Below, in pieces: positions 23,698-28,056 of a stretch of DNA of 64,000 nt. The position numbers were made by a program, and so were the translations under genes. The notes beneath the pieces are model-generated. The model saw nothing but the letters and a program-made list of their open reading frames with translations, made no database searches and had not been told where the DNA came from. Each line of letters begins with the position of its first letter. The first letter of the stretch is position 1. The stretch is from Halobacteriovoraceae bacterium (lineage in GTDB: Bacteria; Bdellovibrionota; Bacteriovoracia; Bacteriovoracales; Bacteriovoracaceae): the NCBI GenBank assembly GCA_002711995.1, contig PASN01000010.1:132485-196484 (forward strand), given 5' to 3'.

Positions 23698-24276
23698 ATG
23701 ACTAAAAAAAGATGTCCTTGGTTAAATTTAAAGAATCCTCAATACGTCGAGTATCATGACAGAGAATGGGGAAGGCCTGTTCACGATGACCATAAGCACT
23801 TCGAAATGATTACTTTAGAGGGGGCCCAGGCGGGACTTAGCTGGGAGACAGTTCTAAAGAAAAGGGAGCGTTACCGAGAGGTGTTTAAGAACTTTGACCC
23901 GGTTAAAGTGTCCAAGTTTTCCAGTGCTAAGGTTGAAAAACTGATGCTTGATCCTGGTATCATTAGAAACAGACTAAAGATTGAGTCCACCATTACAAAT
24001 GCCAAGGCATTCATAAAGATACAAAAAGAGTTCGGAACCTTCGACAAATACATCTGGAACCTTGTAGGCGCTAAAACAATCAATAGCTTTGAGACTTTAG
24101 AAGACTACCCCACCAAGACTCCAACGAGCGACAAGATTTCAAAAGACCTTAAGAAAAGAGGCTTTCGCTTTGTTGGAAGCACTATCATATACGCCTATAT
24201 GCAAGCATGCGGCATGGTTCAGGACCATTCAAAAGACTGCTATTTAGGTGGAAAGAAACTTAGAAACCTTTCTTAA
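23698..24276 (+). CDS. tag: DNA-3-methyladenine glycosylase I
   Basis: Tag removes 3-methyladenine from alkylated DNA to start base-excision repair. The 192-residue protein carries the zinc-ligand pattern: RCPW near the start (Cys), EYHDREWG (His) and DHSKDCYLG (His, Cys) near the end. The catalytic-pocket segment LEGAQAGLSWETVLKKR includes the conserved Glu. The length matches the family. It overlaps the convergent flavoprotein gene by 17 bases at the 3' end. Confidence 0.95.
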   Translation: MTKKRCPWLNLKNPQYVEYHDREWGRPVHDDHKHFEMITLEGAQAGLSWETVLKKRERYREVFKNFDPVKVSKFSSAKVEKLMLDPGIIRNRLKIESTITNAKAFIKIQKEFGTFDKYIWNLVGAKTINSFETLEDYPTKTPTSDKISKDLKKRGFRFVGSTIIYAYMQACGMVQDHSKDCYLGGKKLRNLS

Positions 24277-25459
24277 AAGACCCTAGAGCGCGCCATGCAG
24301 TGGAGAAGCTGGCCTGGAGAAGATACCCCCCGGTAGGCGCTTCAAAATCAAGCATCTCCCCTATTACATAAACACCAGGCAGCTTCTTTAATTGAAAATT
24401 TGCATTCACTTCGCTGAGGGCGACCCCACCCGATGTTGAAATGGCCTCTTCTATAGGACGAGTGGTTTGCAAAACGACTTTGAGAGACTTAATGTTCAGA
24501 GCGAGTTGTTCTGGATTGTTGTAATCCTCTTTGGCAACGAGCTCCTTTAGAAGGATGTTGTGGTTTTTAGAAATCCCTAAACTCTTTCTTAGGTGATTGG
24601 ACATACTTGTCTTTTTGCCACGCTTTATTAGGCGTTTTTTAACCTCATCTAAGTCAAGGTCAGGTTTAAGGTCAAGGTGTATTTCAGCGCTTCCATTGAG
24701 CAGTATTTCTTCTCTTATGAAATTTGAGATAGCGTATATCCCTCCTCCCTCTAGTCCAAATGGAGTGAGCATTAATTCACCCCGCAGACGATGGTTTTGA
24801 AAGGAAATCCCGACGTTTTTAAGCGGAGCTCTATCTACCGATTCAATAAAAAATGTAGACCACTTGGTTTCAAAACCACAGTTCATAGGCAAGAACTCTT
24901 TAATTTCCACTCCTAATTTCTCAAGGAGTTGTTTCCACTTTCCATCAGAGCCTGTTCTTTTCCAGCTGGCCCCTCCTAATCCAAGAATCGCTTTTTCAAA
25001 TGGAACTTCAATCAGCTCACCCTTACTTTTGAATATGAGCTGTTCCTCCCGGATCTCTATTAGGGAGTGCCTTGCAAACAGTTTAAAATTCTTATCTGCC
25101 TTTAGCTTATCAACCCATCGCTTTAAAATCTCTGATGCTTTGATATTCTTTGGAAAAACTCTTCCTGATGTGCCAACAAAGGTTTCAACCCCAAGCTCTG
25201 AAAAGAAACTTCTTAAGTCTTTAGGCCCAAATTCTTGAAGAAGCTCATAAAAAAGCCTAGAGCATTGTCCATAGCGTTTTGAAAAAGGTTCAAGATCTTC
25301 ACTGTGAGTGAGGTTTAGTCCACCATTGCCCGCAACTAAAAACTTTTTGCCAACAGCGGTGGTTTGCTCATAAAGCTCAACGGAGTAACCTCTCTCCAAC
25401 AACTTAAAAGCGCAGAAAAGGCCTGCGGGTCCGCCGCCAACAATAATGACTTTTTCCAT
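24260..25459 (-). CDS. HI0933-like FAD-dependent flavoprotein (TIGR03862 type)
   Basis: This 399-residue flavoprotein starts with a Rossmann FAD motif (VIIVGGGPAGLFCAFKLLE) and AVGKKFLVAGNGGLNLTHSE, a signature of the HI0933-like group. The C terminus has ISTSGGVALSEV and PGVYVIGEMLDFEAPTGGY. Members are presumed oxidoreductases, some with roles in tRNA or RNA modification, but no reaction is settled. It is convergent with tag and divergent from the DUF968-type gene. Confidence 0.9.
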   Translation of the reverse strand: MEKVIIVGGGPAGLFCAFKLLERGYSVELYEQTTAVGKKFLVAGNGGLNLTHSEDLEPFSKRYGQCSRLFYELLQEFGPKDLRSFFSELGVETFVGTSGRVFPKNIKASEILKRWVDKLKADKNFKLFARHSLIEIREEQLIFKSKGELIEVPFEKAILGLGGASWKRTGSDGKWKQLLEKLGVEIKEFLPMNCGFETKWSTFFIESVDRAPLKNVGISFQNHRLRGELMLTPFGLEGGGIYAISNFIREEILLNGSAEIHLDLKPDLDLDEVKKRLIKRGKKTSMSNHLRKSLGISKNHNILLKELVAKEDYNNPEQLALNIKSLKVVLQTTRPIEEAISTSGGVALSEVNANFQLKKLPGVYVIGEMLDFEAPTGGYLLQASFSTAWRALGSFKKGF

Positions 25460-25531
25460 AATGGCACCTGGAACCCCTTTTCAAAGATTGGCAGGGGTCT
25501 TATAATCAAAATACTTAAAAAAGGATAACAT

Positions 25532-26401
25532 CTGGAGCTTTCAAAACACAAACCTCACCGCAATCAGCGATACCTTAATTGGCTAAGGCAGCAAAAATGT
25601 GTTGTTGCCTCAGTAAAGGCCCAGTGTGCTCACCATATAAGACTAGGCACCAACGGTGGCGCAGGCCTTAAACCTTCAGACTACTTCTGTATCCCTTTAT
25701 TAAATGAATATCATACCACCGGTTCTCAAGCTTTGCATATTATTGGAGAAGAAACTTTTTTAACCTCATTTAAACTGGAGCCAGTTGATTTGTTCTTCAA
25801 TTTTCTGCGCAATTACCTCAAAGAAGAATATGAAGTGTGCCTACTGAAAAATGCCAGCCCCTCACTGCAAGGGATAGCCACCCTAATAGAAAAGATTGAG
25901 AGCTTAAGGCCAACAAAAGAACCAATTAAGACTAGAACAAAAAAGAAGAGATCTGTTGCGGACACTGATTTTTACCAAGAGACCAAAGAGTTAAAAAGGC
26001 AAAAAGATAAAGAGCTCAGAGAAAAGCTAAAAGAAAAGTCCCCTCTCAAAGAGAGTGAGGCCTACCAAAAAGCAAAAGAGCAAAAGAGAGTAAGAGACAA
26101 GCTCCTTAGAGAAAAATTAAAAGAGAGTGATTCAAGGCCAACTCAAGCGAAAAGAAAAACCAGCACAGTAAAAGTTGTCAAAAACAAAGAATTATATGAA
26201 AAGGCCAAAGAGGCAAAACGACTTCGAGACAAGGAGCTTCGACAAAAACTAAAAAAAGAAAGAGCTCCAAAGAGGTCCCTGACAAATAATGATTTCTACC
26301 AAAAGGCCAAAGAAGCAAGAAAAGAGCGGGAAAAAGAGCTCAGAAAAAAGCAAAAAGAGCGTATAAAAGAAATGCGCAGAAGTTCAAAAGATATTGATTA
26401 A
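25532..26401 (+). CDS. DUF968/HNH-like nuclease with repetitive basic tail; CTG start
   Basis: The frame from the TTG at 25733 loses the conserved domain. The same frame is open upstream to CTG 25532, which follows AAGGA with normal spacing; there is no in-frame ATG, GTG or TTG before 25733. The resulting 289-residue protein has an N-terminal DUF968-type HNH-like domain: RNQRYLNWLRQQKCVV, AQCAHHIRLGTNGGAG, KPSDYFCIPLL, NEYHTTGSQALH, giving His pairs typical of a metal-binding nuclease finger. From about residue 143 to the end four charged repeats follow, each about YxKAKExKRxRDKELREKLKE, a likely nucleic-acid-binding coiled segment. DUF968 proteins are mostly phage-associated; no phage genes lie nearby. 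Confidence 0.75.
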   Translation: MELSKHKPHRNQRYLNWLRQQKCVVASVKAQCAHHIRLGTNGGAGLKPSDYFCIPLLNEYHTTGSQALHIIGEETFLTSFKLEPVDLFFNFLRNYLKEEYEVCLLKNASPSLQGIATLIEKIESLRPTKEPIKTRTKKKRSVADTDFYQETKELKRQKDKELREKLKEKSPLKESEAYQKAKEQKRVRDKLLREKLKESDSRPTQAKRKTSTVKVVKNKELYEKAKEAKRLRDKELRQKLKKERAPKRSLTNNDFYQKAKEARKEREKELRKKQKERIKEMRRSSKDID

Positions 26402-26434
26402 AAAATTAGACCCTTTTGTGATACAATTCCTCCC

Positions 26435-26863
26435 ATGAATGACTACATCCTTACCTACAGAAAATTAGTAATGCCCGATGACCTAAACCACGCCAAGACT
26501 CTTTTTGGCGGAAGACTTCTCCAATGGGCGGATGAAGCTGCAGTAATATATGCAATGTGCCAGATTGGGAGCAAGTCCATAGTTACCTTAAAAATGTCAG
26601 AGGTGCTGTTTAAGAATCCTGCTCGCAGCGGAGACGTCCTCGAATTCTGGACCAGAAAAGGCAGGGTTGGTAAAAGCTCTCTTGTAGTAGAGTGTGTTGT
26701 CATAAGAAAGACCGTCCAGGCGCCTCAAGAGTTGCCTACTCCTCCTGCAGTAAAAGAGGATAAGTTCAAAAACCCTGAAAATATTATTCTTTCGTGTGAC
26801 TTTAGCTTCGTTCATGTGGATGAAGATGGGCGTCCGGCCCCTCACAAACTGGCGAAGGGCTAG
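26435..26863 (+). CDS. Hotdog-fold acyl-CoA thioesterase
   Basis: This 142-residue protein fits the YciA/BACH-type acyl-CoA hydrolase group: VMPDDLNHAKTLFGGRLLQWADEA, abridged to NHAKTLFGGRLLQWADEAA, contains the catalytic Asn/His/Asp region, followed by LKMSEVLFKNPARSGDVLEF. It would hydrolyse acyl-CoA to acid and CoA. It lies 33 bases after the DUF968-type gene and may share its transcript. Its TAG interlocks with that of the convergent histidine kinase in CTAG. Confidence 0.88.
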   Translation: MNDYILTYRKLVMPDDLNHAKTLFGGRLLQWADEAAVIYAMCQIGSKSIVTLKMSEVLFKNPARSGDVLEFWTRKGRVGKSSLVVECVVIRKTVQAPQELPTPPAVKEDKFKNPENIILSCDFSFVHVDEDGRPAPHKLAKG

Positions 26864-28056
26864 GCCTTCTCAAGAAGCGCATTTAAGCACTGAATTAGAG
26901 TATCTTTCTTTAAAGGTTTAGTGAGATATTCGTCACAGCCACACTCTAGAGACTTTTCTCTCTCCTCCTGTAGTGCACAGGCCGTAAGGGCGACGATCTT
27001 TATACTTTTATCTCTATTTTCCAGTTCCCATTTACGAAACTCCCTTGTTGCAGTGTAGCCATCCATTTGCGGCATTTGCATGTCCATAAAAACGAAGTCA
27101 AAGTCGTTGTTCTTCATCTTCTCAAGAGCGTCAAGTCCATCAACGGCCTCTGAAATCTCAAAAGGAAACTTTTTGAGATATGCCTTGACCAGGCTTCGGT
27201 TATTGATAGCGTCATCCACTATTAAAACTTTCAAGGATTTTTCTTTAAGCTTGGAGTCATCGCTCTTCTCAGTTTTAGGAGAAGCTTTTTTGATGGAGCT
27301 GGCCGAAGCTTCCTTAAGGTTAAGACCTGCGATAAATTTAGAGCCTTTCCCCACTTCACTCTCCACGTAAATGGATGAGCCCATAAGGTTGATGAGCTCA
27401 GAAGTTATAGACAGCCCCAAGCCTGTGCCACCAAAAGTTCTATTTGACTTGCCCTCGACTTGAGAAAATTTTTTAAAGATTTTCTTTTGTTGGTTCTCAG
27501 CAATTCCAATCCCTGTATCTTCAACAACAATAAGGAGATTGCCCTTAACTTTGTTATCCTTGTTCTTGCTTAAAGTGAATTTAACATGTCCTTCAGATGT
27601 GAACTTTAATGCATTTCCAACAAGATTAATTAAAACCTGACTAATCCTGGACATGTCTCCTAAATAGACACCTTCAACATCATCTTCAATATTGGATGTC
27701 AGTTTCACATTCTTTTGTTTTGCTTGCCAGGAGAAGATATCGAATATTTTTTCAAACAGTGAGTGGAAGTCCACTTCTTCTTCATCAAGAACCAGCTCAC
27801 CGGCCTCTATTTTAGAAAAGTCTAGAATGTCGTTAACTAAATTCAGAAGAATCTCACTGGAGTTTTTTAAAACACCGACATGCTGCTTCTGTTCAGGATT
27901 AAGTTCTGAATCCTGCAGGAGATCTGAAAGCCCCACAATTGAATTCAATGGAGTTCTGATCTCATGACTTATATTTGCCAGGAACTCACCTTTTATCTTC
28001 GCATGCTTTTGAGCATCCAGTTCGGCCTGCCGTCTTTGTTCTATTTCTTTTTGCAA
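26860..28056 (-). CDS. Hybrid histidine kinase, catalytic half (HisKA-HATPase-REC) downstream of an in-frame TAG
   Basis: This is the cytoplasmic half of a hybrid sensor kinase. It has a HisKA domain with the phosphorylated His (ANISHEIRTPLNSIVGL), an ATPase domain (LVGNALKFTSEGHVKF, VEDTGIGIAE, FGGTGLGLSI) and a C-terminal receiver (VLIVDDAINNRSLV, VFMDMQMPQMDGYTA, Lys in YLTKPL). The only way to start here is TTG 28056, which has no good ribosome binding site. It follows the sensor half in the same frame after a single TAG, so the two are one broken or read-through gene. Confidence 0.9.
   Translation of the reverse strand: MQKEIEQRRQAELDAQKHAKIKGEFLANISHEIRTPLNSIVGLSDLLQDSELNPEQKQHVGVLKNSSEILLNLVNDILDFSKIEAGELVLDEEEVDFHSLFEKIFDIFSWQAKQKNVKLTSNIEDDVEGVYLGDMSRISQVLINLVGNALKFTSEGHVKFTLSKNKDNKVKGNLLIVVEDTGIGIAENQQKKIFKKFSQVEGKSNRTFGGTGLGLSITSELINLMGSSIYVESEVGKGSKFIAGLNLKEASASSIKKASPKTEKSDDSKLKEKSLKVLIVDDAINNRSLVKAYLKKFPFEISEAVDGLDALEKMKNNDFDFVFMDMQMPQMDGYTATREFRKWELENRDKSIKIVALTACALQEEREKSLECGCDEYLTKPLKKDTLIQCLNALLEKA

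Follow-up and report, generated by a model that had tools for sequence, protein, structure and literature searches.

The closest solved fold to the protein considered here belongs to the Ref nuclease of phage P1, an enzyme described as requiring RecA (PMC3973344; PMC4330346). The tail of Ref is basic and unstructured, and binding of the protein to DNA depends on it; 25 of the first 76 residues are positively charged, and this is the region needed for DNA binding (PMC4330346). Gp16 of phage phiNM1 is described as a RecA-stimulated nickase that cuts plasmid DNA without RecA as well, and its inhibition of growth requires its zinc ligands (PMC12817073). A third point of reference is provided by the YdfU-type DUF968 proteins of E. 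coli, in which an Orf-like N-domain is fused to an HNH domain. Our search of the open-licence literature on DUF968/PF06147 and RecA-dependent nucleases found no report of the bacterial clade described below.

The gene in question lies in a 64,000-nucleotide stretch, referred to here as the window, of a contig from a Halobacteriovoraceae bacterium, a marine predator. Its product has an HNH core like that of P1 Ref (3plw; 86 residues aligned, 16% identity) and, like Ref, a long arm that is basic and contains imperfect repeats. The arm is, however, C-terminal, helical in the model and composed of 23-residue units, whereas that of P1 Ref is N-terminal, and the gene is chromosomal, whereas Ref belongs to a phage. 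Compared with a full DUF968 protein such as YdfU, only the HNH half is kept: the Orf-like half is absent, the zinc knuckle is lost and the repeat arm is added. Gp16 differs in having a NinB-like N-domain and in needing zinc ligands that are missing from the window protein. The HNH half of DUF968 without the Orf half or the zinc knuckle, joined to a repeat arm and found in the chromosome of a predator, is a new variation on known enzymes.

The plus-strand frame at 25532-26401 is open, with the preceding stop at 25526-25528, and gives a product of 289 residues from CTG 25532; it is near certain that the frame read from 25532 is the real gene. An earlier note on this DNA had placed the conserved nuclease motifs 5' of the first canonical start and had proposed CTG 25532, close to a Shine-Dalgarno sequence, as the start codon. 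Both proposals are borne out. The named motifs are present, the only near-cognate start that precedes the conserved region is CTG 25532 and the first in-frame ATG, GTG or TTG is TTG 25733. The elements around the start are as follows.

25478..25506, + strand: promoter-like element TTTTCA-17-TATAAT (consensus scan, 10/12 matches; TATAAT at 25501-25506)
25520..25525, + strand: Shine-Dalgarno sequence AAAGGA (from sequence; six bases 5' of the CTG; duplex energy -5.6)
25532..26401, + strand: gene for a putative Ref-like/DUF968 HNH nuclease (289 amino acids plus stop; PF06147, E 9.4e-10)
25532..25534, + strand: CTG start codon (start column in 16/16 alignable orthologs)
25733..25735, + strand: TTG picked by the mechanical caller (ORF list; Shine-Dalgarno energy -2.9)

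Duplex energies were calculated against what we take to be the anti-Shine-Dalgarno sequence, and the energy alone is weak evidence: -5.6 is reached by 11.6% of random 18-mers, and TTG 25790 has the same value as CTG 25532. The promoter-like element is likewise weak when taken alone, as a scan of the region gave three sites against a mean of 1.5 after shuffling. On comparative evidence, CTG 25532 is the start codon. Nineteen relatives are available, of which 16 align through the N-terminus (the other three are L027-L029). Within the Halobacteriovoraceae/Bacteriovoracaceae, these alignable orthologs and the window gene form a natural start-codon series at one column (9 ATG, 6 TTG, 1 GTG and, in the window, 1 CTG), and ATG, TTG or GTG is found at any other aligned column in at most 3 of the 17 sequences. 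The start in L027-L029 is an ATG that falls a few codons later than the CTG column. The closest relative carries TTG at the CTG column, and the same-genus relative L014 has a TTG start behind the leader AAAGGATAACAT, which is identical to the leader in the window.

The mode of initiation appears to vary within this series. The Shine-Dalgarno energy is -3.3 or lower in all seven genes that start with TTG or CTG (the six TTG relatives and the window gene) and in one of the ten ATG/GTG relatives. Seven of those ten (L011, L012, L019, L020, L021, L024 and L026) have a -10-like hexamer, matching at five or more of six positions, that ends 6-8 bases 5' of the start codon, which suggests leaderless mRNAs. 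Start codon and initiation mode thus seem to change together among the orthologs. The initiator tRNA of the window's own genome has the standard GGG...CCC anticodon stem, and a variant initiator tRNA was rejected on this ground. Presumed initiation at CUG in the cell would make the locus a clean comparative case of such a start where the anticodon stem of the initiator tRNA is ordinary. Since the wild-type initiator tRNA is inefficient at CUG in vitro (PMC11497404), low expression of the window gene is to be expected. The rare start, though sound and useful as a curiosity, does not amount to a new mechanism.

Two other accounts of the start have been considered. It is extremely unlikely that the true product begins at TTG 25733 or TTG 25790 and is a basic repeat protein only, with the upstream part untranslated. 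Such a product would begin at the first canonical start or, at 25790, behind a Shine-Dalgarno match equal to that of the CTG, but the ortholog starts lie upstream of TTG 25733, neither TTG is conserved as a start codon (the 25733 column holds one in 1 of 17 sequences, the window gene itself) and the best-conserved codons lie 5' of both. Conservation within the gene is strongest over codons 2-67, which evolve as protein-coding sequence under purifying selection: against the same-genus relative, 37 of the changes fall at third positions, 8 at first and 6 at second, with pN 0.10 and pS 0.81. These counts and pN/pS were used in place of dN/dS because dS is saturated in most pairs. There is little likelihood, too, that the true codon is TTG or ATG, misread as CTG through an error of sequencing or assembly, or that the CTG marks the onset of gene decay. 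The TTG at this column in the closest relative would fit such an error, and in the tree the window branch (0.56) is longer than the sister branch (0.18), so the gene may be at an early stage of decay. Against this, the whole frame is intact, all key residues are kept, and a single ordinary transition turns TTG into CTG, here with a good Shine-Dalgarno sequence upstream; a pseudogene was rejected in view of the intact frame and the strong third-position bias. The choice of start matters for annotation. Beginning at TTG 25733 would remove 67 residues (1-67), H34, H35 and H61 among them, and, to judge from the mechanical caller, standard annotation would probably lose the enzyme part; the gene is an example of an enzyme domain that start-codon rules can hide.

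The earlier note had also called the protein a DUF968-type nuclease, and had proposed that a lack of DUF968 homology within residues 1-70 would refute this. Residues 5-62 match PF06147 (DUF968) with an E-value of 9.4e-10 and 39.2 bits, against a Pfam cut-off of 27.8. The assignment is nevertheless partial, in that the match covers positions 83-140 of the 171-position profile only, i.e. the C-terminal HNH half; the Orf-like half of a full-length DUF968 protein is missing, and the HNH half stands at the very start of the frame. The YdfU phage protein, by comparison, covers profile positions 1-169, and hhalign relates it to the window protein with a probability of 96.2 (E 2.7e-9). There is also a match to PHROG 96, 'HNH endonuclease' (E 2.4e-8). 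Gp16 (PF16784, HNHc_6) also passes the DUF968 cut-off; its hhalign alignment with the window protein spans 69 columns with an E-value of 4e-4 and a probability of only 34.5, and it places H157, H185 and H189 of Gp16 opposite H34, H61 and H69. The parts of the core are listed here.

25544..25825, + strand: HNH core, residues 5-98 (core model; alignment with P1 Ref 3plw)
25631..25636, + strand: H34-H35 of AHHI, first catalytic-type histidines (invariant, 23/23)
25712..25714, + strand: H61, aligned with H185 of phage Gp16 (invariant, 23/23; hhalign)
25736..25738, + strand: H69, aligned with H189 of phage Gp16 (invariant, 23/23; hhalign)

The core model (pLDDT 86.5, pTM 0.81) has strands at 32-35 and 53-56 and a helix at 58-63, the beta-hairpin plus helix (beta-beta-alpha) of the HNH superfamily; the mean pLDDT of the full-length model is 82.8. 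When either model was compared by VIA-align, P1 Ref (3plw) ranked first, with Z 6.5 for the full model (87 residues, over 5-98) and Z 6.7 for the core (rmsd 3.6, 86 residues, over 6-98; the runner-up was IscB, Z 4.8). The likeness is of moderate strength, as Z values below 8 can reflect a common arrangement. Foldseek, given the full and core models, found no solved structure in the PDB at E <= 0.001, and a sequence search of solved structures gave chance or low-complexity matches only. Among viral models, Foldseek found 12 at E <= 1e-3, some of them named 'RecA-dependent nuclease' or DUF968. With the Ref profile PF16786 (RecA_dep_nuc), the gene gave no match up to an E-value of 10 in the 20 genomes that carry it. 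The window protein is, then, Ref-like in fold and is not assigned as a member of PF16786. We are confident in placing it among the HNH enzymes, with a Ref-like fold and putative nuclease activity. H34, H35, H61 and H69, the catalytic-type histidines, are invariant in all 23 aligned sequences (20 bacterial and three viral).

The zinc ligands (CxxC, CxxH) of the HNHc_6/Gp16 type are not found in the window protein. The second and third cysteines are lost in 20/20 bacterial members and the final ligand histidine is absent in 19/20, L012 retaining a histidine at that position. Three viral proteins from IMG/VR (L067, L068 and L070) have the same zinc-less core, so loss of the zinc knuckle is not peculiar to bacteria. 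L067 and L068 pass the DUF968 cut-off, and the products of all three stop soon after the core, without the repeat arm of the window protein. A long MALA-type repeat frame 5' of the viral core at L068:3647-3970 is probably a low-complexity tract and not a protein. A further phage locus, in Pseudanabaena phage Pan3 (L072:1438-1815), contains a DUF968/HNH frame that lacks annotation and is flanked by ssb and ninB, beside an ERF gene.

Beyond the core, residues 133-289 (157 residues) include 60 K/R and 30 D/E, and contain the four repeats that the earlier note had described.

25967..26035, + strand: basic helical repeat unit 1, residues 146-168 (40.3 bits; modelled helix 146-169)
26057..26125, + strand: basic helical repeat unit 2, residues 176-198 (36.4 bits; modelled helix 176-201)
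26189..26257, + strand: basic helical repeat unit 3, residues 220-242 (39.1 bits; modelled helix 212-248)
26291..26359, + strand: basic helical repeat unit 4, residues 254-276 (32.9 bits; modelled helix 252-286)

These repeats, starting at residues 146, 176, 220 and 254, are real. The mean pairwise identity of the four 23-residue units is 0.60, and their best four-copy self-match, with a score of 44, exceeds what 300 shuffled versions of the tail gave (mean 22.5, maximum 29). With a matrix built from the relatives only, the units score 33-40 bits, whereas the highest value among 1000 shuffles was 7.9. K/R exceed D/E in the tails of 20/20 members. Units are clear, in one to four copies, in the 17 members of the main clade and weak in L028; L027 and L029 have basic tails with no unit above threshold. 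The threshold is loose, giving a few false matches in the core (L020, L023, L024 and L025), and 'one to four units' is a reading of the tails. The view of the earlier note that the tail is unusual for the family holds against the phage DUF968 proteins examined (the arm is absent from L067, L068 and L070, and tblastn with the low-complexity filter on found no match to the tail in phages), but the tail is common to the whole main bacterial clade. Pfam matches of the tail to AcrIC5 and TMEM252 were rejected as low-complexity matches below the cut-off. The arm is predicted to bind DNA.

Of the 129 family genomes, 20 have a DUF968 match, and the same 20 are the only ones found among 368 genomes of the phylum; the window's own genome has one such gene. 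The 16 named loci of the contig scan are mostly from Halobacteriovorax, Bacteriovorax and related MAGs, with two labelled Deltaproteobacteria and Epsilonproteobacteria. The gene is patchy within the family, and gene order around it is common to close relatives only. Beyond these, no recurring partner gene was found beside the nuclease, except lexA in one clade. The tree leaves many forks open and does not recover all genera as monophyletic, and strict vertical descent is therefore not claimed.

The lexA linkage is seen in three of the 20 genomes (L046, L047 and L048, a sister clade), in which the nuclease gene starts 1 or 10 bases after the lexA stop; Pfam confirms LexA for the upstream gene. 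Since these genomes have two LexA-type (S24) genes each, the nuclease-linked lexA has a paralog. Upstream of the linked lexA are LexA-box-like TAYGG-N6-TAYGG direct repeats. The window's own genome has the form TACGG-N6-TACGG (period 11) at lexA (two sites, L065:1164-1179 and 1200-1215), at recA (L066:2403-2418) and at a gene for an ImuB-type polymerase followed by a PHP domain (L092:1501-1516). TACGG-N6-TACGG is accordingly put forward, on the basis of these sites, as a candidate LexA box of this family. Only this strict form looks specific, because the looser TAYGG form has 21 matches genome-wide against 10 for the reversed control. No TAYGG-N6-TAYGG site, allowing up to one mismatch, occurs within 300 bases upstream of the window gene, and SOS control of the gene was rejected for this reason.

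The account that we consider rather probable is that of a chromosomal, CUG-started, zinc-less Ref-like nuclease that acts in recombination or repair and whose arm anchors it to DNA or to RecA filaments. An intact gene would be translated from CUG 25532 behind a good Shine-Dalgarno sequence to give a small HNH/Ref-fold nuclease, comprising a core (about residues 5-98) without a structural zinc knuckle and with its active-site histidines retained, then a helical linker and, at the C-terminus, a long arm made up of four basic helical repeats. The enzyme would most likely nick or cut DNA in recombination or repair intermediates, and the arm would hold it on DNA or RecA-coated DNA, as the basic N-terminal tail does for P1 Ref. 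We are moderately confident of a RecA-linked function; dependence on RecA itself is presumed. Several results speak against this account: PF16786 is unmatched, the Foldseek search of the PDB is empty, Z is below 8, the zinc ligands are lost, the lexA linkage is confined to 3/20 genomes, the window gene has no LexA box, and the tail is C-terminal. To these are added the low hhalign probability with Gp16, the longer branch of the window gene, and the poor performance of CUG as a start in vitro together with the standard anticodon stem of the initiator tRNA.

Another account is that of a general chromosomal HNH nickase for recombination intermediates that binds DNA by its arm and has no need of RecA. 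The HNH core and invariant histidines are as such an enzyme would have them, the phage relative beside the ERF gene lies between ssb and ninB, and Gp16 offers a precedent in cutting plasmid DNA without RecA (PMC12817073). We nevertheless regard a general nickase as rather unlikely, given that Ref, which depends on RecA, gives the best match in fold and that lexA is tied to the nuclease in three of 20 relatives. Less likely still is a weapon or defence nuclease, be it an anti-phage effector or a nuclease of the predator directed at the DNA of its prey. The Halobacteriovoraceae/Bacteriovoracaceae are predatory, HNH nucleases are common effectors, and presence in 20 of 129 genomes is patchy. This idea is opposed by the lack of a recurring partner gene beyond close relatives, save lexA in one clade, and by a conserved core that opens the frame and leaves no room for a signal peptide. 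A defence system was rejected, as the PADLOC models contain no family matching the nuclease at E <= 1.

To return to the Ref-like nuclease of recombination or repair, a more elaborate version of it is possible, although we hold it only tentatively and think it doubtful as a whole. The protein could be a cellular counterpart of Ref, a RecA-directed nuclease of the predator that is coupled to the SOS response in one lineage by a LexA paralog of its own and freed from it in others, tuned by the length of its arm (one to four anchoring units), and kept at low dose by the CUG start in the present species. If the link with RecA is true, the family would provide a cellular Ref-like nuclease with a naturally varying number of repeats, in which the role of the arm is directly testable.

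Finally, the surroundings of the gene may be described. Its neighbours encode a methyladenine glycosylase, an HI0933-like flavoprotein and a thioesterase, and with such neighbours the possibility of a prophage gene was rejected. A search of plasmids gave one weak DUF968 match among 72,556 records, and there was no Rfam match at 24000-27500. The gene for the HI0933-like flavoprotein (24260-25459, - strand) is divergent from the nuclease gene; its ATG and the CTG are about 70 bases apart, and the two genes share one short intergenic region.
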